DNA from: a virus
IMG/VR virus record: IMGVR_UViG_3300024520_000239
Location: 1 to 36,567 of that record
DNA: 36,567 nt
Strand: one strand, 5' to 3'
This document shows, one piece after another, positions 13,280-36,567 of the stretch. The notes beneath the pieces are model-generated. The model worked only from the letters and a program-made list of their open reading frames with translations. It was not told the origin of the DNA and did no database searches. Positions within the stretch are counted from its first letter, which is position 1. Every line of letters begins with the position of its first letter. The translations under genes were made by a program, and so were the position numbers.

Positions 13280-14509
13280 CTAACCCACTGGATGAGCTAC
13301 TGGAAACTGATACACCTTCCTTTCTTGTATAATCTTCCCAATCTGTTCTCCCCACCAAATCCAAGCCTCTTTCTTTTCTTTCTCCGGGTTGTAATGGTCG
13401 TATGCACGACCTATCCTGTCCGGTGGTAAGTTCCCACCGTCTTTCGTATGATTAACCATGCGGTGCGCTAAGTATTCTCCAAATCTCTCACTCACCCTGG
13501 TCACCATTGTTGACCGCATATCGTACAGAACAGGTGAGATGTCCGGACCCTGATCCATCTTCAGTCGCTTAACTACTTTGTGCATATCCTTCCCTAACTG
13601 ATCTTCCCTCACATGACCGCTTTCTGTATGGGCTGGGAGTAACCATCCCTCACCACCCACAGGTCGGGTCAACCACACTCGATGACGTTTGCGAGTCTTC
13701 ACCTGTTTGTTTGAAAGCACCCACCACCCCTCATGTATCTGAGAGGAGTGCATCTGGGCCACCTCTATAGGTCGTTGTCCAGTCAACAGCACCTGTCTGA
13801 TTGCCTCTTCCCGTACTGGGTTCCCGATGATGTGAAGATTGTTCCACAGTAAGCGAATCTCATCGTCTTCGAGCGGACGTTCCCTGATCGGTTTCTCATC
13901 CCTTTCCTGTTTGAAAGAAGTGGTTATGTCGAACTCCACGTACCTCTTTATCATTGCAAATGTGAATATGTTTGAGATCACCCGATGAAGGTTTCCCGCA
14001 GCAGCCGGTCCCCTCTCTATCCGGACTTTTAGCTTTAAGTCTCTCAATCTGTCTAAGCGGATATCGGCTATAGCGCAACTTGCGATGTCGTCTTTCAGAA
14101 GGACTCGTTTAATCTGCCCGTCATATCCGTTCAGAGTTTTATCTTTTATCTTCCCCTCACTTCTCTTATCCTCGATGTATTCCTGGGCAACCTGACCCAG
14201 CGTTTGCCGACAAGCTATGGCATCTAACTTTTCTTTCTTTTGAAGTTCATCAATCTGGTTGTCTACTTTGGGGTTCCCCCCTCTGCGTACTTTTGCATAG
14301 GCGGTCAGGTATTCTGTCTCTATATCCTTTTGCGTATCCGCAGGAAACACCCCTAATTTCATGTCATAATTCTGAGTATTGCGTGAGTACCGGTAGTAGA
14401 CTGAGACTTCCCCATTGGTTGCTACCCGGACATAGACCCCTCTTTCATCGAGGTTTAACTTGTATCTTTTGTCGCGTGGCTTGAGTGTACGAATTTGACT
14501 GATTTTCAT
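13280..14509 (-). CDS. int: Tyrosine-recombinase integrase (P4-type)
   Basis: 409 aa. The N-terminal ~60 residues (RGVYVRVATNGEVSVYYRY ... KLGVF) match the DUF4102 arm-binding domain of P4-like integrases. Residues ~103-200 are the SAM-like core-binding domain and ~210-385 the catalytic domain. Catalytic residues are R246 (LLTGQRPIEVA), R332 (YDMRST), a box-III His at H349 (YLAHRM) or H354, and the nucleophile Y370 (GRAYDHYN) near the conserved KEKKEAW helix. The usual box-II His is replaced by Tyr (Y329 in YDMR). An insertion of about ten residues separates H349 and Y370. It integrates and, with the excisionase, excises the genome. attP lies directly upstream. Confidence 0.9.
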   Translation of the reverse strand: MKISQIRTLKPRDKRYKLNLDERGVYVRVATNGEVSVYYRYSRNTQNYDMKLGVFPADTQKDIETEYLTAYAKVRRGGNPKVDNQIDELQKKEKLDAIACRQTLGQVAQEYIEDKRSEGKIKDKTLNGYDGQIKRVLLKDDIASCAIADIRLDRLRDLKLKVRIERGPAAAGNLHRVISNIFTFAMIKRYVEFDITTSFKQERDEKPIRERPLEDDEIRLLWNNLHIIGNPVREEAIRQVLLTGQRPIEVAQMHSSQIHEGWWVLSNKQVKTRKRHRVWLTRPVGGEGWLLPAHTESGHVREDQLGKDMHKVVKRLKMDQGPDISPVLYDMRSTMVTRVSERFGEYLAHRMVNHTKDGGNLPPDRIGRAYDHYNPEKEKKEAWIWWGEQIGKIIQERKVYQFPVAHPVG

Positions 14510-14511
14510 TA

Positions 14512-14530
14512 TGGTCCCTAGATGGTCCCT
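14512..14530 (+). repeat. Integrase arm-type repeats, left pair
   Basis: TGGTCCCTA at 14512-14520 and TGGTCCCT at 14523-14530 form direct repeats 11 bases apart, one helical turn. The same unit recurs three times at 14730-14760 on the other side of the tRNA-like core. Direct short repeats on both sides of a core next to int are the hallmark of arm-type integrase sites. The left pair begins two bases upstream of the integrase start codon. Confidence 0.7.
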
Positions 14531-14643
14531 CTTTTCATTTGATTTGGTAGATATGGATAGAGTTGAATAGATATGAATGTAGATGCAAGAAATGCTTGGG
14601 TGTAAGCCAATTTTAGAGAACTCTTATAGAAAAATCAAGCAAT

Positions 14644-14683
14644 GCCGGTGTAGCTCAGTTGGCAGAGCAGGGCATTCGTAATG
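14644..14683 (+). other. Candidate attP core: 5' half of a tRNA-Thr(CGU) gene
   Basis: The segment begins GCCGGTGTAGCTCAGTTGGC, with a D-arm stem GCTC/GAGC (14653-14668) and an anticodon loop TTCGTAA (14675-14681; anticodon CGT). It matches the 5' half of a proteobacterial tRNA-Thr gene of the thrW type. After 14683 the match stops: the 3' anticodon stem, T-arm and acceptor strand cannot be formed, so it is not a functional tRNA. Its place between the integrase and excisionase genes and between arm-type repeats makes it the likely attachment core. A TATAGA hexamer (14625-14630) lies just upstream and could act as a -10 for the rebuilt tRNA gene. Confidence 0.7.
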
Positions 14684-14719
14684 ATAAGGGTTCGATCAAG
14701 AAACCCTAGAAACAGGCAA

Positions 14720-14986
14720 TTATCGGGGGTGGTCCCTACTTTGGTCCCTAGCTGGTCCCACTCTTTCTATACTTGAAAAGTACGCTTGGAGTTCCGCTAC
14801 GTGCCAAGCGGTCAACCCGTTTGTGATCCGCACCCTGCGGGGGAAGTTCTCGTCCGTCTTCTCTAATCGGCGCAGTGTCATCTCACTAACGCCGATGACT
14901 TCCTTAACGTGCGGTGGTGTTACAAGAAGAGGTGACCCCACGCTACCCCCGGTTGTCCAGACCTTGGTCAGATTCGTAACTAACAT
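14720..14986 (-). CDS. xis: AlpA/MerR-like excisionase
   Basis: 88 aa. The core LLVTPPHVKEVIGVSEMTLR, continuing RRLEKTDENFPRRVRITNG and AWHVAELQAYFSS, is the pattern of AlpA-type winged-helix excisionases and regulators: helix-turn-helix with V-S-x-x-T-[LI]-x-R, then F-P-x-x-x-x-[IL] and a W-x-x-x-E-[VL] helix. These proteins bend attachment-site DNA and steer integrase to excision. The gene is separated from int by the attP region, so xis and int flank the core. The start is not firmly fixed; no good ribosome site precedes 14986. The C-terminal 12 residues are encoded by the arm-type repeats. Confidence 0.75.
   Translation of the reverse strand: MLVTNLTKVWTTGGSVGSPLLVTPPHVKEVIGVSEMTLRRLEKTDENFPRRVRITNGLTAWHVAELQAYFSSIERVGPARDQSRDHPR
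14730..14760 (+). repeat. Integrase arm-type repeats, right triplet
   Basis: TGGTCCCTA at 14730-14738 and 14742-14750, then TGGTCCCA at 14753-14760; start-to-start spacings are 12 and 11. They are in the same orientation as the left pair at 14512-14530. They lie inside the last codons of the excisionase gene and encode its repetitive GPARDQSRDHPR tail. Confidence 0.7.
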
Positions 14987-15013
14987 TTACGGATAAATTT
15001 GGCAGCGTGGGGA

Positions 15014-15268
15014 TCATAATTTTTCCAGCATTTGTCTCTCTATGTTCGTAATCCAAGGAACCGAGTTGTCATCTTCGTCATCATCATCTGGGGGATCGGG
15101 CAGCATCTGCCAATGCGAAACAAAGTCTGTAAGTCCTCTGTTTTCACCAATCAGTTCCCACTTGTGCTTTCCGTGATAAATACCAAGGTCAACTACGCCG
15201 ATCTTGTGTTCATAGACAAGAAGGACATCTCCGATGTGTGGGTTACTTCGACCGGTACTATTCCACAC
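15014..15268 (-). CDS. DUF551-like small protein
   Basis: 84 aa starting with GTG, which overlaps the stop of the upstream SSB gene by one base (TAGTG). The order NPHIGDVLLVYEH, VVDLGIYHGKHKWEL, VSHWQMLPDPPDD matches DUF551 proteins, whose mark is a terminal V-[ST]-H-W-x-x-[LI]-P-x-P-P. An acidic DDDDEDD stretch follows. DUF551 proteins are common in recombination and accessory segments of temperate phages. No biochemical role is established that I can state. Confidence 0.65.
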   Translation of the reverse strand: MWNSTGRSNPHIGDVLLVYEHKIGVVDLGIYHGKHKWELIGENRGLTDFVSHWQMLPDPPDDDDEDDNSVPWITNIERQMLEKL

Positions 15269-15744
15269 TAGAATGGAATGTCTCCTTTCTTCTCCTTAAC
15301 GGGGAAGTCCAAACCACCACTTCTTCCGTCTGCGATACGCTGGACTCTTTCTAAAAGAACCGTGTTGCCTTTCATAGTTCCTGTGTCGAACTCAGCAAAT
15401 TTAATTATTGCTCGGCACTTATCACCTTTTCGGATAACACTGGGATCAATCTCTGCGCCTTCCGCATTTTTGCAGGTAGGCTGGAATATGGACTTAGCTT
15501 TAGTAAGGATAAAGCCGGTGTCGTACTCACCTTCCCCCACCTTAAAAGGACTCCATCCTTCGCCATTCATTTGGTCGAATTTCGATAATTTACTTTGCAG
15601 TTCTTCCAGTGTTTGAGAGTCCGGTTTCAATCGCATTTGAATAGAATACTTTCCAGTATCCGTTCCTTTTACCACTTCCTTTTCTGTGAGATGTATAAAT
15701 CCCATTTCAAACTCACCGGTTAATACTTCGTCGCTCATTCGCAT
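15268..15744 (-). CDS. ssb: Phage single-stranded DNA-binding protein
   Basis: 158 aa. The central part has beta-strand patterning expected of an OB fold (KYSIQMRLKP, EGEYDTGFILTKAKS, KCRAIIKFAEFDTG, NTVLLERVQRI). The C-terminus is GLDFPVKEKKGDIPF, and the terminal DIPF is the protein-interaction tip typical of bacterial and phage SSBs. It sits in a leftward recombination cluster between a PD-(D/E)XK nuclease and a DUF551-like gene, where an SSB works with exonuclease products. The assignment rests mainly on the tail, strand pattern and context. Confidence 0.65.
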   Translation of the reverse strand: MRMSDEVLTGEFEMGFIHLTEKEVVKGTDTGKYSIQMRLKPDSQTLEELQSKLSKFDQMNGEGWSPFKVGEGEYDTGFILTKAKSIFQPTCKNAEGAEIDPSVIRKGDKCRAIIKFAEFDTGTMKGNTVLLERVQRIADGRSGGLDFPVKEKKGDIPF

Positions 15745-15754
15745 ATTTATAGCC

Positions 15755-16207
15755 TCAGTTAAGTTGATCCTGTGTTAATCCGTAAGTCAGTCCATACCCC
15801 AGGTCGATAAGATTCCCGTCATCAAACAACTCGTCCGCTGTGGCGTATCCGGCAAAGGTATAAGACGGCCACTCGCATAGCATGAGTGCATAGACATCTG
15901 CCGGGTTTAGGACTTTGTGCCTGACCGCTAATAAGCGACCGGACTGATACTTGGTGGTTTTGACATCGATCTTATGGCCGGTCTTGGTCATAGCATCGTA
16001 ATTGTCTTTCTCGCTCGATAGGTTTGGGTAGAGGTTCCACAACTTGCAGAACGCGATCTCTGCGCCGGATCCTAGTACGTCTATCTCGATGTCTGACTGC
16101 GGACCTTTCTTCATGTTAGGAACACCCTCTGCTCTGCACTGCTCCAGGCGCATGGTTCCTACATCTTTTGCAATCGATTGTTCCACGGGTGTCAAAGTGA
16201 TCTTCAC
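15755..16207 (-). CDS. PD-(D/E)XK nuclease-like protein
   Basis: 150 aa. The motif order is G-x-GAE (E50 in VLGSGAEIAFCK), then KIDVKTT with D81 and K83, followed by beta-strand RLLAVRH and an LNPADVYALML segment. This is the E...D-x-K active-site layout of the PD-(D/E)XK fold, as in T7 endonuclease I-like resolvases and many small phage nucleases. It lies directly after the split exonuclease, whose stop overlaps its start. It may cut branched or duplex DNA during recombination; the substrate is not visible from sequence. Confidence 0.65.
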   Translation of the reverse strand: MKITLTPVEQSIAKDVGTMRLEQCRAEGVPNMKKGPQSDIEIDVLGSGAEIAFCKLWNLYPNLSSEKDNYDAMTKTGHKIDVKTTKYQSGRLLAVRHKVLNPADVYALMLCEWPSYTFAGYATADELFDDGNLIDLGYGLTYGLTQDQLN

Positions 16208-16680
16208 TTATATCTCTGTTTGCCGATCGCTCGTTTCGTTTCTACCTGATCGTGCTTGAGCCGGTTAACATCCTTTGCTATCCGTCTCAGCGTGGGTGTG
16301 AACTTGACGCGCTTACACTGGAACCGACCGTGTGGCTTATCCGTCACCTCTTTGGGCAACCGAAACACGTACAGCCATTTAACCTTTTCCTTTTTGTTGA
16401 TCTGCTCGACCGCTATGGCATACAGGGCAAGCTGGATGAAGTGGTCGAAATTAACTCGCTTGCTTGTCTTGAAGTCTCCGATGCACAGGTCTTTGCCCAT
16501 GCGAAAGCGGACATCCAAGGTTCCACAGAAATCATGGGTCGGCTTGCGTGGGTTGGTGTAATAGATAACTTCCTCAGACGCTAGATACTCTGGATTGTTT
16601 TCTGTCTCCCAATCGAGGAAAGCATCTATCCCCATCCGCACACCATCGTGTACCGGTTTGTCTGGGTAGTTAACGTCCAT
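16204..16680 (-). CDS. RecB-like exonuclease, C-terminal half (D-x-K motif)
   Basis: 158 aa. It holds most of a Cas4/RecB-family PD-(D/E)XK active site: D56 in HDFCGTLDVRF, D69 and K71 in CIGDFKTSK, and the QLALYA helix motif (Q83...Y87). The N-terminal H-x-x-x-E helix expected ahead of these motifs is missing here and is found instead at the end of the upstream ORF (16670-17038). The ATG at 16680 overlaps that ORF's end by 11 bases. Upstream of the ATG this frame is open, so the two pieces look like one ~280-residue 5'-3' exonuclease that was split. Either a two-subunit enzyme, a +1 frameshift product, or a sequence error would explain it. Confidence 0.7.
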   Translation of the reverse strand: MDVNYPDKPVHDGVRMGIDAFLDWETENNPEYLASEEVIYYTNPRKPTHDFCGTLDVRFRMGKDLCIGDFKTSKRVNFDHFIQLALYAIAVEQINKKEKVKWLYVFRLPKEVTDKPHGRFQCKRVKFTPTLRRIAKDVNRLKHDQVETKRAIGKQRYK

Positions 16681-17038
16681 TTCTAATCCTGTGTTTAACG
16701 TGTTCTTCCAGCCACTTGTGGGTCAGGTTGCCGATACTGATCGCCTCGCCACTCACCCGCATATGTTTAGTCCTGGCCTGTTCTGCAAGGTCTGTGACGT
16801 TTAATTCGGTCAACTTGATCTCACCTTTCATCACACCTTTCAGAATCTCCAGCGTCTCTTCCCCAGCACAGGATGCAGACCAATACATGAGTCCGTCTAG
16901 GCCATCTCCCATCATCTTGGACATTCCGGTCACACCCATGACCTTTCGGTTGCCGATCTGGTAGCTGTGTCCTTTCTCGTAGAAGTCAATCTCCAGTCCT
17001 TGGATAAAATGTCTTGTTGGTATCTCAGATTCCGGCAA
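16670..17038 (-). CDS. RecB-like exonuclease, N-terminal half
   Basis: 122 aa from a TTG at 17038, chosen because GGAGG lies six bases upstream; a longer reading to 17125 overlaps the NinB-like gene and is not protein-like. The sequence GHSYQIGNRKVMGVTGMSKM, then LAEQARTKHMRVSGEA and IGNLTHKWLEEHV, is the usual N-terminal part of RecB/Cas4-type nucleases, with the H-x-x-x-E motif at H107/E111. It stops 11 residues after that motif, before the catalytic D-x-K region, which is supplied by the next ORF. Its start overlaps the stop of the NinB-like gene. See the 16204-16680 entry for the split. Confidence 0.65.
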   Translation of the reverse strand: MPESEIPTRHFIQGLEIDFYEKGHSYQIGNRKVMGVTGMSKMMGDGLDGLMYWSASCAGEETLEILKGVMKGEIKLTELNVTDLAEQARTKHMRVSGEAISIGNLTHKWLEEHVKHRIRNGR

Positions 17039-17402
17039 GGGTTGCCTCCAGTAATTGGATGTATTCGGATGCCTCTTCTCTTGACAAGTCTGTCGTTGAC
17101 CTGGGGATCTCCCGCCAGATGCCACCGACCTCGATCGTCTTCATCCCGAGGTGGTTACTCTTAGACCATTCCTTAACCTCACCGATCGTGTGGCCCGATC
17201 TCTTCGAGAGTTCCCGATAGATCTTGTGGATCGTATCGTTCTGAGGGTTTGACCGGCGTTTAGGTCGGATGAAGACCTCATGCTGTGCACCACCGGATTC
17301 CAGAATCTTGACCGCACCTTCTATGTTCTCGATGATCTCGATAACATCCTGGCGAATTACGTCTGTCCTAAAATTCACGATAATTTGATCGAGCCGTTGC
17401 AT
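17025..17402 (-). CDS. NinB-like recombination protein
   Basis: 125 aa. The C-terminal two thirds read NPQNDTIHKIYRELSKRSGH, TIGEVKEWSKSNHLGM, then PRSTTDLSREEASEYIQLLE. This order (Q-N/Q-x-D near a helix, EVK-x-W-x-K, and a terminal [ST]-T-x-x-[LM]-[ST]-x-x-E helix) resembles the NinB/Orf family, lambda recombination proteins that bind ssDNA and help load strand-annealing activities. Its neighbours (exonuclease, SSB, DUF1364) support a recombination role. The N-terminal 55 residues are less characteristic. The assignment is by pattern, not by alignment. Confidence 0.55.
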   Translation of the reverse strand: MQRLDQIIVNFRTDVIRQDVIEIIENIEGAVKILESGGAQHEVFIRPKRRSNPQNDTIHKIYRELSKRSGHTIGEVKEWSKSNHLGMKTIEVGGIWREIPRSTTDLSREEASEYIQLLEATLAGI

Positions 17403-17704
17403 AAGAGGTCGTGCAGGTAGATAAGGGATGCCTCTGCGTGCCTTGCGCGGACAAAATCTCTGTCCAGAATTCGGGTACGACCGTCACACTCGTCATGGCA
17501 GGAACTGCAACAAGCTGCGCCGAAGATGGTTGGCTTTAACCCCATACCCGCACCCAGTCTTAGATGTCGAAAGTGGGCGAACACCACCGTCTCCGGATTG
17601 TCATTGCAGATTTCGTGAAACATCAGCCGACAATCTTCACCCTTTGCCGATTTGGTCACCTTTGAGATGACCCTGCGGTTGATCCTGTTCTTCAGACAAA
17701 CCAT
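17375..17704 (-). CDS. DUF1364 (HNH-like) protein
   Basis: 109 aa from ATG 17704, which lies within the end of the upstream wHTH gene; a GTG at 17734 is an alternative. The pattern GEDCRLMFHEICNDNPETVV, FAHFRHLRLGAGMGLKP, ACCSSCHDECDGR is that of DUF1364 proteins: C...C pair, N-P-E-T-[TV]-V-x-A-H, G-M-G-x-K, and C-x-x-C-H-D-x-x-D-G. The cysteine-histidine set suggests a zinc-bound HNH-type fold. These proteins are regularly found beside phage recombination and ninR-like genes. It is part of the leftward recombination operon. Confidence 0.75.
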   Translation of the reverse strand: MVCLKNRINRRVISKVTKSAKGEDCRLMFHEICNDNPETVVFAHFRHLRLGAGMGLKPTIFGAACCSSCHDECDGRTRILDRDFVRARHAEASLIYLHDLLCNGSIKLS

Positions 17705-17943
17705 GTCTGTGCCAAGCGACCGGATACGGTGCACTCTCTGGGGTTACCCTTGTCACACAAACGTCGCTTGTGTAGCTCTGGGAGCCTTCTAGCGGTCGCT
17801 TTACGGTCTAGCCCCAACTCGATAGCTAGTTCGAGAGAAGTGACTGGTGTGGGCGAATCAAGGAGTCCGTCTATGATCTGGACCGGAGTGGATTTGGCTC
17901 GGGAAACGAAGTGGTATGCGTTGTCAGAAATAGTAGGTTCCAT
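17692..17943 (-). CDS. Winged-helix DNA-binding protein
   Basis: 83 aa. TPVTSLELAIELGLDRKATA, then RRLPELHKRRLCDKGNPREC and TVSGRLAQTWF, fits a winged helix: helix 2-turn-helix 3 (ELAIELGLDRKATARRLPEL), a wing, and a final TW strand. Such small wHTH proteins are common next to phage repressor or replication genes. It follows the repressor by about 40 bases on the same strand, and its end overlaps the DUF1364 gene. Regulatory or replication role undecided. Confidence 0.65.
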   Translation of the reverse strand: MEPTISDNAYHFVSRAKSTPVQIIDGLLDSPTPVTSLELAIELGLDRKATARRLPELHKRRLCDKGNPRECTVSGRLAQTWFV

Positions 17944-17984
17944 ACCTGGGTATGGTAACCGATCGGGTACAACAACGCAAACTG

Positions 17985-18359
17985 TTAAGTCGACACTAAT
18001 TTAATAAGAAATTCTATATTAGTGTTCTCTTTATAAGATTCTACTGCTATTCGAGCCACTTGAGTGGGGCTGAGTTGCACACCTTTGTCATCTGCGGTCT
18101 GTTGGATATCAGTCAACACTCGAACCAATTTATCCTCATCGAACGCTGGCGTATCGTGGCCCCAGAGCAGGGCAGCAGGGTGGACGTTTAAGTGTTGAGC
18201 AGCCTCTTCCCACCTTTTTAGGTTCATTTCCTGTAACCCGTTGATCCACCGATAGGTCTGCTGTCGGGCAACACCCATCTTCCTGGCGAGTTCAGCGGAG
18301 GTGATTCCCGCCTCTTTCATTTGGTTCTTTAGCCTTATCAAGGCTTCTGTGTGTTTCAT
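17985..18359 (-). CDS. HTH-XRE repressor (CI-like, no protease domain)
   Basis: 124 aa. Residues 18-60 form a classical XRE helix-turn-helix: SAELARKMGVARQQTYRWIN then GLQEMNLKRWEEAAQHLNVH. The rest is a short helical C-terminal domain for dimerisation with no LexA-type Ser/Lys protease motif, so RecA-stimulated self-cleavage is not expected. It is the first gene of the leftward transcript and is divergent from the early rightward promoter at 18442-18470. Two nearly identical operator-like repeats (18369-18381 and 18390-18402) stand just upstream of its start, which suggests autoregulation. CI role is inferred from position; a Cro-like role is possible. Confidence 0.7.
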   Translation of the reverse strand: MKHTEALIRLKNQMKEAGITSAELARKMGVARQQTYRWINGLQEMNLKRWEEAAQHLNVHPAALLWGHDTPAFDEDKLVRVLTDIQQTADDKGVQLSPTQVARIAVESYKENTNIEFLIKLVST

Positions 18360-21865: not shown

Positions 21866-22096
21866 TTATTTATTCCAGTCAGATTGGTCTAACGCGTGAA
21901 CATCACAAAAAAAGCGGATAAGGTTTGACCGCATACCGGATTCGGCGCGCGGGTCATTACGTTGGTAATAACTATTGCCAATTAGATAGTTGTGTAATAC
22001 CGATACATCCGACGGGCTATAACTATTCACCAATTCAGTTGCACGGTTAAATCGATCATCACCCGTGTATTTCATCCAGGCACGTTGATTGCTCAT
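21866..22096 (-). CDS. Unknown protein, 76 aa
   Basis: ATG 22096 overlaps the stop of the DUF7227-like gene by four bases. The product is helical and polar: TGDDRFNRATELVNSYSPSD, VLHNYLIGNSYYQRNDPRAE, NLIRFFCDVHALDQSDWNK. The NSY/YYQR-rich centre is unusual, but no domain is known to me. It belongs to the leftward accessory operon. Confidence 0.6.
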   Translation of the reverse strand: MSNQRAWMKYTGDDRFNRATELVNSYSPSDVSVLHNYLIGNSYYQRNDPRAESGMRSNLIRFFCDVHALDQSDWNK

Positions 22097-22824
22097 ACTT
22101 CACCCCGTGCTACTTGTGTAGCTTTACGTTTACTTGAACCATGCGCGGGAAACCCGACAACAACGCGGGGTCGGATACCGTTTTGTGCGGACACTTTAGA
22201 AACTGCACAAAGTTTGCAAGTCGAACAGGTCACGTTGTCTTTATAAGTAGCGGGACAGACAACGGCCGGATAACCGCCCGGAATAGCAAACCGCTTTTCC
22301 TGGTGATCAGTTGGCAGCACGGTTACAACTGGCGCGATATCTAATTCCAACAACCGTTGTGCATGGTGAGGGTTATTACCGGACAGATTGACACTCAATC
22401 CGGCTTTTGCCATTGCGCGGACAACTGACCGGTTATGTCGGGCTATAGCTTTACCTTCAAACTCACCGGTCATATCGTAATGACAATAGGCAATAGCAGA
22501 CTTACCCTTAGACGCCTTCGCCAGCGCGATACACTTGGCCCGGTCTAACCGCTTACCGTCTCCGGGAAAGTCTCCGACTTGCGCGTGCCTAAACAGAGTG
22601 CTATCTGGTAAAGCGGACACGCTAGAAACATAATCAGTCCAACTAGTCCCACGTTCACCAGAACTTACCTTGTTCCAGTGCAAGCGGATCGGACCACCGT
22701 CACCATAACAACCCTTCCGTTTAAGCGGACAACAATCCGGACAGCTATCTTCTGATACTGTACTAACCGGTATAGGGCCGGTCTTAGCGTTACTACTCTT
22801 TATAGTTAAATGTGCTGTAGTCAT
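22093..22824 (-). CDS. DUF7227-like phage protein with Cys clusters
   Basis: 243 aa from ATG 22824, chosen over 22836 because GGGAG lies six bases upstream. TTAHLTIKSSNAKTGPIPVS, CPDCCPLKRKGCYGDGGPIR, LHWNKV, FRHAQVGDFPGDG, VNLSGNN, VTVLPTD, VVCPATYKDNVTCSTCKLC and VVVGFPAHGSSKR follow the order of DUF7227 proteins, which are found in many phages. The two Cys clusters could bind zinc or an iron-sulfur centre, and the overall pattern of short strands recalls a TIM-barrel-like enzyme. No activity is established that I can name. It is the main gene of an operon convergent to the late transcript. Confidence 0.7.
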   Translation of the reverse strand: MTTAHLTIKSSNAKTGPIPVSTVSEDSCPDCCPLKRKGCYGDGGPIRLHWNKVSSGERGTSWTDYVSSVSALPDSTLFRHAQVGDFPGDGKRLDRAKCIALAKASKGKSAIAYCHYDMTGEFEGKAIARHNRSVVRAMAKAGLSVNLSGNNPHHAQRLLELDIAPVVTVLPTDHQEKRFAIPGGYPAVVCPATYKDNVTCSTCKLCAVSKVSAQNGIRPRVVVGFPAHGSSKRKATQVARGEV

Positions 22825-22852
22825 ACAATCTCCCATTGCAGTTAATACGCAA

Positions 22853-28576: not shown

Positions 28577-28876
28577 ATGACCCCAACACAATTCGGTGAA
28601 ATCCTGTCTCAATCAGGCTACGACAACCTCCAAAAACTAGCACTGAGAAATGGAGACGGCTACTACGCAGAACAGTTTTCCCATGCGGACCAGGATAGGG
28701 AAGAAGCGCATTGGAAAGTTGTTTACGCAATAGGTAAAGAAGAAAAGATGCACATGGCGCAGTACCGGTTTGATTCAGTAGGTTTATCCAGCTACGAAAG
28801 ACTACGACTATCGCGTGAAGACGCGCAGAAACTATTAGACGACAACCAGCAGGTATTTAATGGCTCGACGGTTTGA
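28577..28876 (+). CDS. Unknown small protein before the portal, 99 aa
   Basis: ATG 28577 behind AAGGCG. The product is helical and charged (MTPTQFGEILSQSGYDNLQK, REEAHWKVVYAIGKEEKMHM, LRLSREDAQKLLDDNQQVF). No domain recognised. It overlaps the portal start by 17 bases, which suggests coupled translation. It may be a small head-assembly protein. Confidence 0.55.
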   Translation: MTPTQFGEILSQSGYDNLQKLALRNGDGYYAEQFSHADQDREEAHWKVVYAIGKEEKMHMAQYRFDSVGLSSYERLRLSREDAQKLLDDNQQVFNGSTV

Positions 28877-31450: not shown

Positions 31451-32772
31451 ATGGCTAGTCCCATTACCACTACCACTCAAATTGCGGGTCCGGTTAACGT
31501 AGTTTTTCAACAGACTCTGTTGAGAAACGCGAAAGCACGCTGCCCGTATTTTGTAGGTAGTGTCCCGGCTGAAATCCGGGAACACACGGGATCCTTCACC
31601 GCTAAATGGCGTAGGATCGAAAACCTCACCCCGGTGTCTGCTGCACTCTCACAACTGACCGGTAACGTCGCGTTCCCAACGCGAGATGCCGTGCAGCCGA
31701 GTGTGTCTGACATCACACAAGCCGTCTCCAAGTACGGTAACTACATTCTGCTTAACGAAGAAGTCGATTTGGTTAATATGGCCCCAGTGCGCGGTAACGT
31801 GCATTAGTGAACTCTGTGAATTGCGGGAACCCCCTAACGTAAAGGCGAGGGCAATCCGCAGCGAAGCCTCTAACGAGGAACGTTCAACGACTATCCCGAA
31901 AGGGAGTAGGACCAAGTGGTCCGAAGCGCAGAGAATCCCGAAAGGGATTAAGAGATAGTCTCATCTGCATCGACGAGATGCAGCAGCGAAAGCGGGACAA
32001 GACTAACGATCTTGTCTGAAGATAATGCAACTTCACCGGACAAGCAGATAAGTTAGTAGAAGTACTTGGTATCAACGCAGGTCAATCCATCAACCGCGTA
32101 CAGCGCGATGAAATGGAAGACAACGCAACTCAGATCTACGCCAACGGCGTGGCAAACCGTGTTTCGGTCGCAACAGCTATCAAGCTGAACGACATCAAGA
32201 ACGCAGTCAACCAGATCAAACGCAACGATGGTACAGCGTTTATGGCACAGACTGAAGGTTCTCGAAGCATTGGTACCGCACCGATCCGTGAGTCTTTCTG
32301 GGGGATATGCCATCCTGATGTCGAGGAAGATATCCGCACTCTGACCGGCTTTAACGCTGTTGAAACCTATGCCAGTCAGACTTCGACTGCGCCGGGTGAA
32401 TTCGGTGCTGTAGCTGGTGTGCGTTGGTTATCCACTTCGGAAGGATCGATCGATGACAACAGTGGTGTTGCAGTTGGTGCAACCGGTTGTCGTTCGACGG
32501 GTGCTGTAACTATCGATACCTACGACAGCGTGGTGTTCGGTAAAGACTCGGTTGGTTCGTTGGGATTTGGTGCTGAACACATCAAAGAAATCTACACTGC
32601 GGGAGACAAACTCCCAGCCGTTCTTGCTATCAGCAAGTCTCGCGGTTCCAGTGGTGTAGCTGACCCATTGAACGAACTTTCAACGATGGGTTGGAAGTCC
32701 TGGATGGCTGCCAAGATTTTGAATGGCAACTGGATCAGGAACATCGTGAGTGGTGCTACCGACCTTGCATAA
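31451..32772 (+). CDS. Major capsid protein (N4-gp56-like), interrupted by a group I intron
   Basis: Exon 1 starts at ATG 31451 after AAGGAG; exon 2 ends at 32772. Read without splicing, translation would stop at 31805-31807 after 118 residues. With splicing the two parts form one 357-aa protein. Exon 1 has NVVFQQTLLRNAKARCPYFV, FTAKWRRIENLTPVSAALSQ, DITQAVSKYGNYILLNEEVD; exon 2 continues FTGQADKLVEVLGINAGQSI, then SFWGICHPDVEEDIRTLTGF, SLGFGAEHIKEIYTAGDKLP. This matches the N4-gp56 capsid family, where the VDL segment is followed within ~15 residues by the LLGEQAG-like helix. The preferred join is 31779 to 32028 (codon AT|C, Ile); an alternative is 31800 to 32028 (codon GT|C, Val). Confidence 0.85.
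31780..32027 (+). ncRNA. Group I self-splicing intron in the capsid gene (subgroup IA-like)
   Basis: Conserved elements in order: P AATTGCGGGAA (31819-31829), Q AATCCGCAGC (31853-31862), R GTTCAACGACTA (31882-31893), S AAGAGATAGTC (31950-31960). Pairings: P3 CTCTGTG (31812-31818) with CGCAGAG (31927-31933); P4 between P and Q; P5 CCCT/AGGG; P6 CCTC-TAAC-GAGG (31867-31878); P7 GACTAT/ATAGTC; extra hairpins P7.1/P7.2 (31894-31922) as in subgroup IA; P8 AATCCC-GAAA-GGGATT (31934-31949); P9 hairpins 31965-31983 and 31996-32016. It ends TAATG with the terminal G at 32027. P1 is drawn between 31772-31779 and 31801-31808, with a U-G pair at the splice site and one A-C mismatch. There is no homing endonuclease ORF. 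Confidence 0.9.
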
Positions 32773-33818: not shown

Positions 33819-35437
33819 TGCTGGAGAATCAACCGGCTAAACCGTTTCAGACGATTCTACGGTTTGGAGGTGGCATTGTAAGTGTCGCGTCCGAAGATGA
33901 GATAAAAGAAATCGAGTGTAGTGCTGGACAGAATTTCAGCATGAGTCTTGATAACTCACATTACAAACCGCGCAAGCCTTTTCAGTTGATGGGGACCGCA
34001 ACCAACGGTGCCGATATAAAAGGGTTTGCTCAGTTGGTAAAGAAAGATGGCACGATCTCTACACTCGTCCAGGCTGGTGATGTGGTGTATGAGTGGGATG
34101 GGACAACTACATTTACATCCAGAGGAACTGTAAATGCGGGTTCCCAGTTGCGCGGACCACTCTCCGCAAACTGGACACTCGACGACAAGGTTCTCATTAC
34201 GGACCTGGCTAAACTGGAAGTGGTTAAAGAATGGAACGGTACTGCGCTTTCGGATGTCACCACTAACCTGGGAGCGGATTTCTACGCCAAATACTGTTTT
34301 GTTGAGAATGAACGTGCGTGGTTTGGAAACGTAAAAGCGGGTACTGACACACCGCATCTGATAGCGGTATCTAAACTGGAAGATTACGACAATCTTTCGG
34401 TAGCTGATCGACCGTCTTCCTTGCTGAGTGATGCCGATCCTTTTTATCTACTCTCGCCTGATCTAAGACCGGTTAACGGAATGCTTGAGGCATTCGGTGC
34501 GGTCATGTTCTCGTCCATCCGTGGATCTGTCTTTAAGTTCACAGGGACCAGTGCAAAGGATTACGCGATTACAGCGTTCTATAACGGATCCGCAGCCACT
34601 GGTGATGAAGGGGTTGTCCACGTTGGGAACGATGTTTATTTCGGCAGGGCTGGCGCGATTGAAACACTGTCCGGAATTCAAACGATCGGTGAGGCAACGG
34701 TAGATGATCTAAGTCGCTTTATCGCTAACGATGTCGAAACCGTAACCGAATGGAGACTGGTGTGGGATCGGGATACTGCGAAACTCTACTGCTTTCCCAA
34801 AGATAACGACGAGATCTGGGTCTTCCAGAAACCGATCTACGACGATGTAGCCAAGAACGCTGCATTAAATAATCTAGGAAAGTTTGTTTCCCCCTGGTCG
34901 CGTTATGTCACAACGCACTCTGCGGGATTTCAGCCCACTACTGTTTGGAATATGCTGGATCCTGCTACCAGCAAGATGGCAGTCTACTTTGGAGATACTT
35001 CCGGCAATATCTACAAGATGGAAGGGGGCAGTTACAACGGAGACGGTGGTACGACGGACATATTATCTACGAGAACGTCTAAGGCTTTTCAATCCCCACC
35101 CGGTCAATTGTTCGACGTAAACGGGTGGATTCTCTATCGCAAACCTTCGGAAGAGGTGAAGGTCACCCTGGTGTTTGAATATGGTGGTGTATCGGTGTTT
35201 GACCAATCCATAGAGTTGACCCTACCTGCTCCATCAACGACGACATTTTCAGCGTATGGCAGCGGAACAAGTTATTACGGAAGTGGAACAAGCTACTACG
35301 GCACCTCCTTTATCGGTCGCCTCAGTAGACAAGAGTGGAGTGCAGCAGGACGCGCCAGTCAAATCCAAGTCAAAGCGCAAATCGAGGGCAAAACAGACTT
35401 CTCGATCGCAGAAATCGGGATCAACTGGTCGGGTTAA
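33818..35437 (+). CDS. Tail nozzle (tail tube B-like) protein
   Basis: 539 aa, beta-rich. Repeated propeller-like blades are visible: GTISTLVQAGDVVYEWDGTT, LDDKVLITDLAKLEVVKEWN, YCFVENERAWFGNVKAGTD, DVYFGRAGAIETLSGIQTIG, RDTAKLYCFPKDNDEIWVFQ. This is the layout of podoviral nozzle proteins such as T7 gp12 or P22 gp10, and it follows the adaptor. Near the C-terminus (about 481-497) there is a short repeat YGSGTSYYGSGTSYYG, also repeated at DNA level. The last 180 bases are overlapped by the next ORF in another frame. Confidence 0.75.
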   Translation: MLENQPAKPFQTILRFGGGIVSVASEDEIKEIECSAGQNFSMSLDNSHYKPRKPFQLMGTATNGADIKGFAQLVKKDGTISTLVQAGDVVYEWDGTTTFTSRGTVNAGSQLRGPLSANWTLDDKVLITDLAKLEVVKEWNGTALSDVTTNLGADFYAKYCFVENERAWFGNVKAGTDTPHLIAVSKLEDYDNLSVADRPSSLLSDADPFYLLSPDLRPVNGMLEAFGAVMFSSIRGSVFKFTGTSAKDYAITAFYNGSAATGDEGVVHVGNDVYFGRAGAIETLSGIQTIGEATVDDLSRFIANDVETVTEWRLVWDRDTAKLYCFPKDNDEIWVFQKPIYDDVAKNAALNNLGKFVSPWSRYVTTHSAGFQPTTVWNMLDPATSKMAVYFGDTSGNIYKMEGGSYNGDGGTTDILSTRTSKAFQSPPGQLFDVNGWILYRKPSEEVKVTLVFEYGGVSVFDQSIELTLPAPSTTTFSAYGSGTSYYGSGTSYYGTSFIGRLSRQEWSAAGRASQIQVKAQIEGKTDFSIAEIGINWSG

Positions 35438-35924
35438 AGCACACCCAAAACTGGAAAGACTTCTTAAACGGGGTGGTTATTACCGTTTGATAGAAGAGAG
35501 AGATGCACGGTGGGTCTACGCAGCCTATAAGAAAGGTGCGTTTGAATCTATCCGGCGTGATTTAGAACCACAGGAGTTCCTCGCAGAGTTGTTGGGTCGC
35601 AGTGCTAATGCAACTATATATGTAGCAATATCTAATGAAAGGCCGATAGGTCTTGGTTTTATGGTCCCGATCAACTCTAAGTTGACGGATCTGCACGGTG
35701 TATGGTTTCCGTGGTCAACACCTAGAGAGGTGATGTCGGCAACCGCACGGTTTATGAACGACCAAAAACATGAAACTTCCCTTCTGATTACTTCAGAAGA
35801 CCATACGAGAGCTAATTTTATTCATATGTGCAAATACGGACTACTAAGACTCGTGGGCAAGATCGAGAACTATTTTGAAGGTGAACGTGCCGGTCACGTT
35901 TTCCAGAGTGTAAGGAGAAGTTAG
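35340..35924 (+). CDS. GNAT-like acetyltransferase-fold protein
   Basis: About 194 aa if it starts at GTG 35340; an ATG at 35256 gives 222 aa. Either way it overlaps the nozzle gene deeply. The first part is a Lys/Ser/Arg-rich linker. The folded part has YYRLIEERDARWVYAAYKKG, AFESIRRDLEPQEFLAELLG, TIYVAISNERPIGLGFMVPI, LLITSEDHTRANFIHMCKYG and ENYFEGERAGHVFQ. It resembles the GNAT-like proteins next to podoviral tail genes, with the order of alpha, beta and a final N-x-x-x-[FY] segment. The acetyl-CoA loop (Q/R-x-x-G-x-G/A) is not clear, so catalysis is uncertain. Confidence 0.6.
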   Translation: MQQDAPVKSKSKRKSRAKQTSRSQKSGSTGRVKAHPKLERLLKRGGYYRLIEERDARWVYAAYKKGAFESIRRDLEPQEFLAELLGRSANATIYVAISNERPIGLGFMVPINSKLTDLHGVWFPWSTPREVMSATARFMNDQKHETSLLITSEDHTRANFIHMCKYGLLRLVGKIENYFEGERAGHVFQSVRRS

Positions 35925-35926
35925 AA

Positions 35927-36567
35927 ATGAGTTGGGGTCAAATTATTCCCGCTGCTATTTCTGGTTATTCAGCATTAAAGGGATCAAAAGCCGAGAAACG
36001 TGGACAACAAGCACTAGCTCAAAATGTGGACTGGGCCAAGAACCTGATCCCAGATCAGTGGACCGCCTCGACTCCGGTTGGTGGTGTTGGGATGACCCCA
36101 GACGGACGGATGGTTAATGCTTTCCAATCTCCTTTCAGAGACTCCCTTTCCTCGATGATTCCTGGATACAACCAACTCTTCTGGCAAGGTGAGCAGTTAA
36201 ACCCCTTCCAGCAGCAACTGACGGGGTTGGGGACAGACTTGGCTGGCATGAGAGACAAGGTGGCTCCTGGGTACTCCCAACTGCGCGATGTGCGCCGATC
36301 TGCATTGTCGGATGCACACACACAGAGGATGGGTAATCTTAGAAACACTATCAACCAACGCAGACTCACTGGTTCCTCTTTCGGTAATCAAGCGGAGGGT
36401 ATAGCAGAAGCAGACTATGCACGCGCACGGGAAGAGTCGGACGCTAAAACCTTTCTTGAGGAATTTGCAGCTACGAGTGGTTTGATTAACCAGGAGGCAG
36501 AGATGGCAGGTCGGGCGATGAACGCACTACTTGCGCGGTTAACTCAACAGTCCGGTGCCTTGGAAGG
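35927..36567 (+). CDS. Putative internal virion protein (first of three), runs across the window end
   Basis: ATG 35927 with AAGGAGAAG upstream. The frame is open to the last base; joined to base 1 it ends as GALEG then TAA (bases 2-4), giving 214 aa. The start MSWGQIIPAAISGYSALKGS, followed by Lys/Glu/Arg/Gln, is the usual start of the small ejection protein (T7 gp14-like, P22 gp7-like). Later parts are Gln/Arg-rich helices with NTINQRRLTGSSFGNQAEGI. It is followed by the 500- and 955-aa genes. Role inferred from start pattern, size and order. Confidence 0.65.
   Translation, partial: MSWGQIIPAAISGYSALKGSKAEKRGQQALAQNVDWAKNLIPDQWTASTPVGGVGMTPDGRMVNAFQSPFRDSLSSMIPGYNQLFWQGEQLNPFQQQLTGLGTDLAGMRDKVAPGYSQLRDVRRSALSDAHTQRMGNLRNTINQRRLTGSSFGNQAEGIAEADYARAREESDAKTFLEEFAATSGLINQEAEMAGRAMNALLARLTQQSGALE

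Follow-up and report, generated by a model that had tools for sequence, protein, structure and literature searches.

The window analysed here, the 36.6-kb IMG/VR record IMGVR_UViG_3300024520_000239, contains a major capsid protein (MCP) gene whose coding sequence is broken in two. According to the ORF table, the capsid frame opens at the ATG at 31451, which is preceded by an AGGAG ribosome-binding site, and closes after 118 codons at an in-frame TAG (31805-31807); a second ORF (32113-32772) follows in a different frame, an arrangement already described in the first-pass annotation of this DNA. An automatic pipeline would call two proteins here, and, inasmuch as the second ORF has its own ATG, these might be taken for separate genes specifying two coat polypeptides without any splicing. 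That reading is exceedingly improbable: inspection upstream of 32113 revealed no ribosome-binding site, that is, no counterpart to the AGGAG of 31451; coding similarity to relatives extends 5' past this ATG up to 32029; relatives encode the capsid protein as a single fused ORF; and the gap between the two ORFs contains a group I ribozyme. The reading of the split gene is corrected here to one gene with two exons on the + strand: exon 1 (31451-31773; 107 codons plus 2 nt), as defined by the ORF table and by alignment with intronless relatives, and exon 2 (32028-32772), as defined by alignment with relatives and by a match to phrog_1357.

By sequence match and predicted fold, the interrupted gene encodes a major capsid protein of the N4-gp56 family, which agrees with the N4-gp56-like coat protein suggested at the outset. 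Exon 2 alone matches phrog_1357 (major head protein) with an E-value of 8.8e-25, and the uninterrupted protein of an intronless sister (termed here L010; IMGVR_UViG_3300025128_007395) matches TIGR04387 (N4-gp56 family major capsid protein) with 137.5 bits, the cut-off being 60. For an alignment-based model of the capsid protein (mean pLDDT 62, with low confidence at the insertion region itself) the best Foldseek matches are to the N4 capsid (E 3.1e-11); a single-sequence model (pLDDT 29) was useless and was discarded. The insertion falls within codon 108, adjoining three residues that are invariant (E103, E104 and D106) and one that is nearly so (N109), just before a long helix predicted by the model at residues 112-140; neither half would be expected to serve as a coat protein by itself.

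The boundaries of the insertion were obtained by placing the exon 1 and exon 2 proteins on 90 loci drawn from IMG/VR and from the window's own record. L010 is the informative relative: its MCP is 99% identical in protein sequence, its DNA is about 96.5% identical over 8.3 kb, and its two capsid halves are joined by one codon, with exactly 254 bases of the window absent at that same codon. Hence the intron corresponds to 31774-32027 (254 nt, + strand, without a long ORF). This empty site confirms the 3' end at 32027 (TAATG) that had been proposed from the sequence; the 5' end, however, was originally put at 31780, six nucleotides downstream of the real start. Starting the intron at 31780 would add two residues absent in intronless relatives and leave the U.G pair described below unused. 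Because the intron starts at 31774, the spliced protein, as aligned with relatives, has 355 residues rather than the 357 first given. Group I introns require a U at the end of exon 1 that is paired with a G of the internal guide, and a terminal G; here the last base of exon 1, U31773, pairs with G31781 of the guide, and the last base of the intron is G32027. The predicted exon junction of the spliced RNA is GATTTGGT followed directly by CAACTTC.

Inasmuch as the record is of metagenomic origin, a break within a capsid gene could in principle be an assembly or sequencing artefact. A second contig (termed here L011; IMGVR_UViG_3300024057_000210), which is 99.96% identical to the window, carries the identical 254 nt at the same site, and so assembly error is very unlikely; moreover, the insert is a structured ribozyme. 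An artefact thus has a vanishingly small probability.

The identity of the intron is indicated by a covariance search, as the first-pass annotation had advised: Rfam RF00028 (Intron_gpI) matches 31765-31983 over the full model (1-253) with 87.3 bits (gathering score 50) and an E-value of 3.8e-21. Intron_gpI is the sole Rfam family above its gathering score across the whole window, and a search of the record found a single group I intron, at the capsid gene. (A weak match to a CRISPR repeat, below gathering, was rejected; it is the P8 hairpin.) The segment also folds more stably than expected, at -94.1 kcal/mol versus a mean of -73.9 for shuffled sequences (z -3.85), with none of 200 shuffles as low.

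All helices expected of a group I intron can be drawn on the + strand. P1 (31771-31783) pairs exon GGU and the first intron base, U (31771-31774), with the guide GGCC (31780-31783); a P2 hairpin (31786-31805), obtained by folding and in the drawn structure, follows. A 7-bp P3 (31812-31818/31927-31933) encloses P4 (31822-31826/31856-31860), P5 (31830-31832/31849-31851), P6 (31861-31862/31882-31883), P6a and the 5' strand of P7 (31889-31893/31956-31960). The hairpins P7.1 (31894-31905), P7.2 (31909-31922), P8 (31934-31949) and P9 (31965-31983), like P4 and P7, occur both in the drawn structure and in the alignment described below, in which P5 and P6 served as positions for the covariation count; P9.1 (31986-31993) and P9.2 (31996-32016) come from the drawn structure only, and P10 amounts to only about 2 bp on paper. 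Thus the first-pass annotation was right both in its coordinates for the core elements P (31819-31829), Q (31853-31862), R (31882-31893) and S (31950-31960) and in listing a 7-bp P3, P4-P8, two hairpins like P7.1 and P7.2, and P9 hairpins.

These pairings were examined for covariation by aligning the window intron with six other phage introns (seven sequences in all). Both sides are altered in 26 of 48 pairs, a count that none of 500 shuffles reaches, although this is not to be read as a probability, because the seven introns are related. Paired bases occupy 94.6% of the alignment cells, versus 33-42% in controls in which the partner strand was slid. The helices differ in what they contribute: all five pairs of P7.2 show changes on both sides; P7 is invariant and carries no covariation information either way; and P5 is weakly conserved, being paired in 62% of cases. 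Subgroup IA is characterised by hairpins in the interval from P7 to the 3' strand of P3. By its sequence, and specifically by its P7.1 and P7.2, the intron is of the phage IA type, an assignment at the level of the subgroup (IA1, IA2 and IA3 taken together). (Of the group I introns of viruses, more than half are IA2; PMC11835236.)

It is thus very highly probable, judging from the sequence, that 31774-32027 is a compact, ORF-less IA group I intron within codon 108 of an N4-gp56 capsid gene and that splicing restores the coat protein; the covariance match, compensatory pairs, empty site, U.G pair, terminal G and capsid-family match together uphold the ORF-less group I intron originally proposed for the MCP gene. 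The intron and its limits are read directly from the sequence; splicing itself we infer from this anatomy and from known group I chemistry. Within the late transcript the intron RNA would fold and splice itself: an external G would attack, with cleavage after U31773 while it is paired with G31781; exon 1 would then be joined to exon 2 at C32028, the intron leaving with G32027 as its last base; and the joined exons would give the 355-residue coat protein. On unspliced RNA, the in-frame UAG (31805-31807, + strand), which both the ORF table and the drawn structure place just 5' of the catalytic core, would halt ribosomes before P3, and so keep the core free of ribosomes, and only a 118-residue fragment would be made. 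Since an unspliced message can be read only as far as codon 118, it is reasonable to suppose that capsid yield depends on the efficiency of splicing.

The intron seems to be confined to one phage lineage. Besides the window and L011, none of the other placed loci has an insertion of intron size at the capsid site; an Rfam scan of 16 loci detected an intron in L011 only; a search of IMG/VR for the exact core pattern likewise found only the L011 contig; and probing other MCP genes for an intron at this motif otherwise yielded chance matches alone, as tblastn and Rfam showed. Such confinement is what might be seen if the element, its core still intact, spliced inefficiently and were decaying within a phage or prophage defective for its coat protein. 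This is very unlikely, inasmuch as every core helix is intact, the identical intron recurs in a second contig at 99.96% identity, and both exons retain open frames with very few amino-acid changes relative to L010. The window and L010 capsid genes differ by 4 amino-acid changes in 355 codons and, because the differences in both exons are mostly synonymous, both capsid halves are still under selection.

Related introns, with 69-77% identity, are located in terL, polymerase, thyX and MCP genes; the nearest in sequence are ordinary phage introns of terL, polymerase, thyX and reductase genes. The introns of DSS3_VP1 (terL) and AD45 (thyX), for example, share with the window intron a core that is 73-75% identical and the same P7.1/P7.2 layout, but reside in terminase and thymidylate synthase genes, and in each the matched core is followed closely by an annotated endonuclease gene. 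In some phages small group I introns without an ORF are common, as in the Jug phages, where they average about 206 nt (PMC12363816).

Nor is a capsid-gene intron unprecedented, as might have been supposed. A probable group I intron likewise interrupts the major capsid gene of the mycobacteriophage LittleE, for which splicing was demonstrated by RT-PCR and N-terminal protein sequencing, and which illustrates that splicing can supply hundreds of coat subunits per virion; that intron differs, however, in its length (about 819 bp), in its LAGLIDADG-like ORF and in belonging to an unrelated phage, and its ORF-less, 265-bp relative in BAKA lies in a tail gene (PMC3706429). The same paper cites a group I intron in the capsid gene of Tuc2009. 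Group I introns also occur in the MCP genes of crAss-like phages (Delta and Zeta; PMC7886860). The MCP intron of crAss cr118_1, which has no annotated ORF inside, aligns with the window intron and itself scores 94.7 bits as a group I intron; these gut phages, however, have a crassvirus-type capsid, of another MCP family. Within cr118_1 (NC_055872) the group I intron, at 1047-1540, lies between two annotated major head protein genes, and so these should probably be annotated as one spliced gene. The Podoviridae phage ctDrO704 (MW202512) has an N4-gp56 MCP gene (TIGR04387) with intron-like DNA just upstream (817-1444), but there the insertion sits nearer the start of the gene, beside an HNH (IceA-like) ORF, and its Rfam score does not reach gathering; exon 1 of this MCP gene was not located. 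Capsid-gene introns of group I are thus already known from phages, and the window intron is a well-supported further example, a clean instance of a coat-gene intron that lacks an ORF and lies at a conserved capsid motif, just before a predicted long helix. A literature search of incomplete coverage found no paper on an intron at this site in this N4-gp56 subfamily.

The intron encodes no homing endonuclease, its longest stop-free stretch being about 62 codons, as the first-pass annotation had also concluded. Family searches of the 36.6-kb record (which may be incomplete) and of sister contigs found no HNH, GIY-YIG or LAGLIDADG endonucleases, and none was evident in a Pfam scan of about 30 window ORFs. 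The phage does possess a YbcO-type nuclease; we know of no homing role for YbcO. Because no homing endonuclease was found within the intron or the record, any homing would be helped in trans; collaborative homing and trans homing routes have been reviewed (PMC2988022).

The flanking exons are suggestive in this regard. The capsid genes of the window and L010 show 25 mismatches, of which nine lie between -9 and +31 of the insertion point, and all nine are synonymous; such clustering was reached in 0 of 20,000 random placements, although uniform placement is a rough null model and the 8.3 kb compared include four further 40-base patches of equal divergence. This cluster resembles the co-conversion of flanking exon that accompanies homing in T4 (PMC2988022). 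One of the differences, at position 31771 (G in the window, T in L010), permits a P1 pair that is impossible for the L010 exon. The intron may, then, have been acquired when the phage recombined with a relative that carried it, probably aided by an endonuclease encoded elsewhere, a proposal that is modestly supported. Whether that move was a recent instance of collaborative homing, bringing in a foreign exon patch that improved P1 pairing, is a more doubtful though possible suggestion; if true, L010 and L011 would constitute a natural before-and-after pair. So similar an intronless sister is good material for studying the spread of endonuclease-free introns.

Divergence from L010 is also raised over other short stretches of the window, at 28599-28673, 28765-28822, 34392-34460 and 35904-36016. 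Elsewhere in the window, positions 13280-18359 (- strand) contain a lysogeny and recombination module, consisting of a tyrosine integrase, AlpA-like and SSB-like proteins, the YbcO nuclease and a Cro/C1-type regulator, given which the phage carrying the capsid intron is probably temperate. Positions 22093-22836 (- strand) encode a DUF7227 protein (250 bits).
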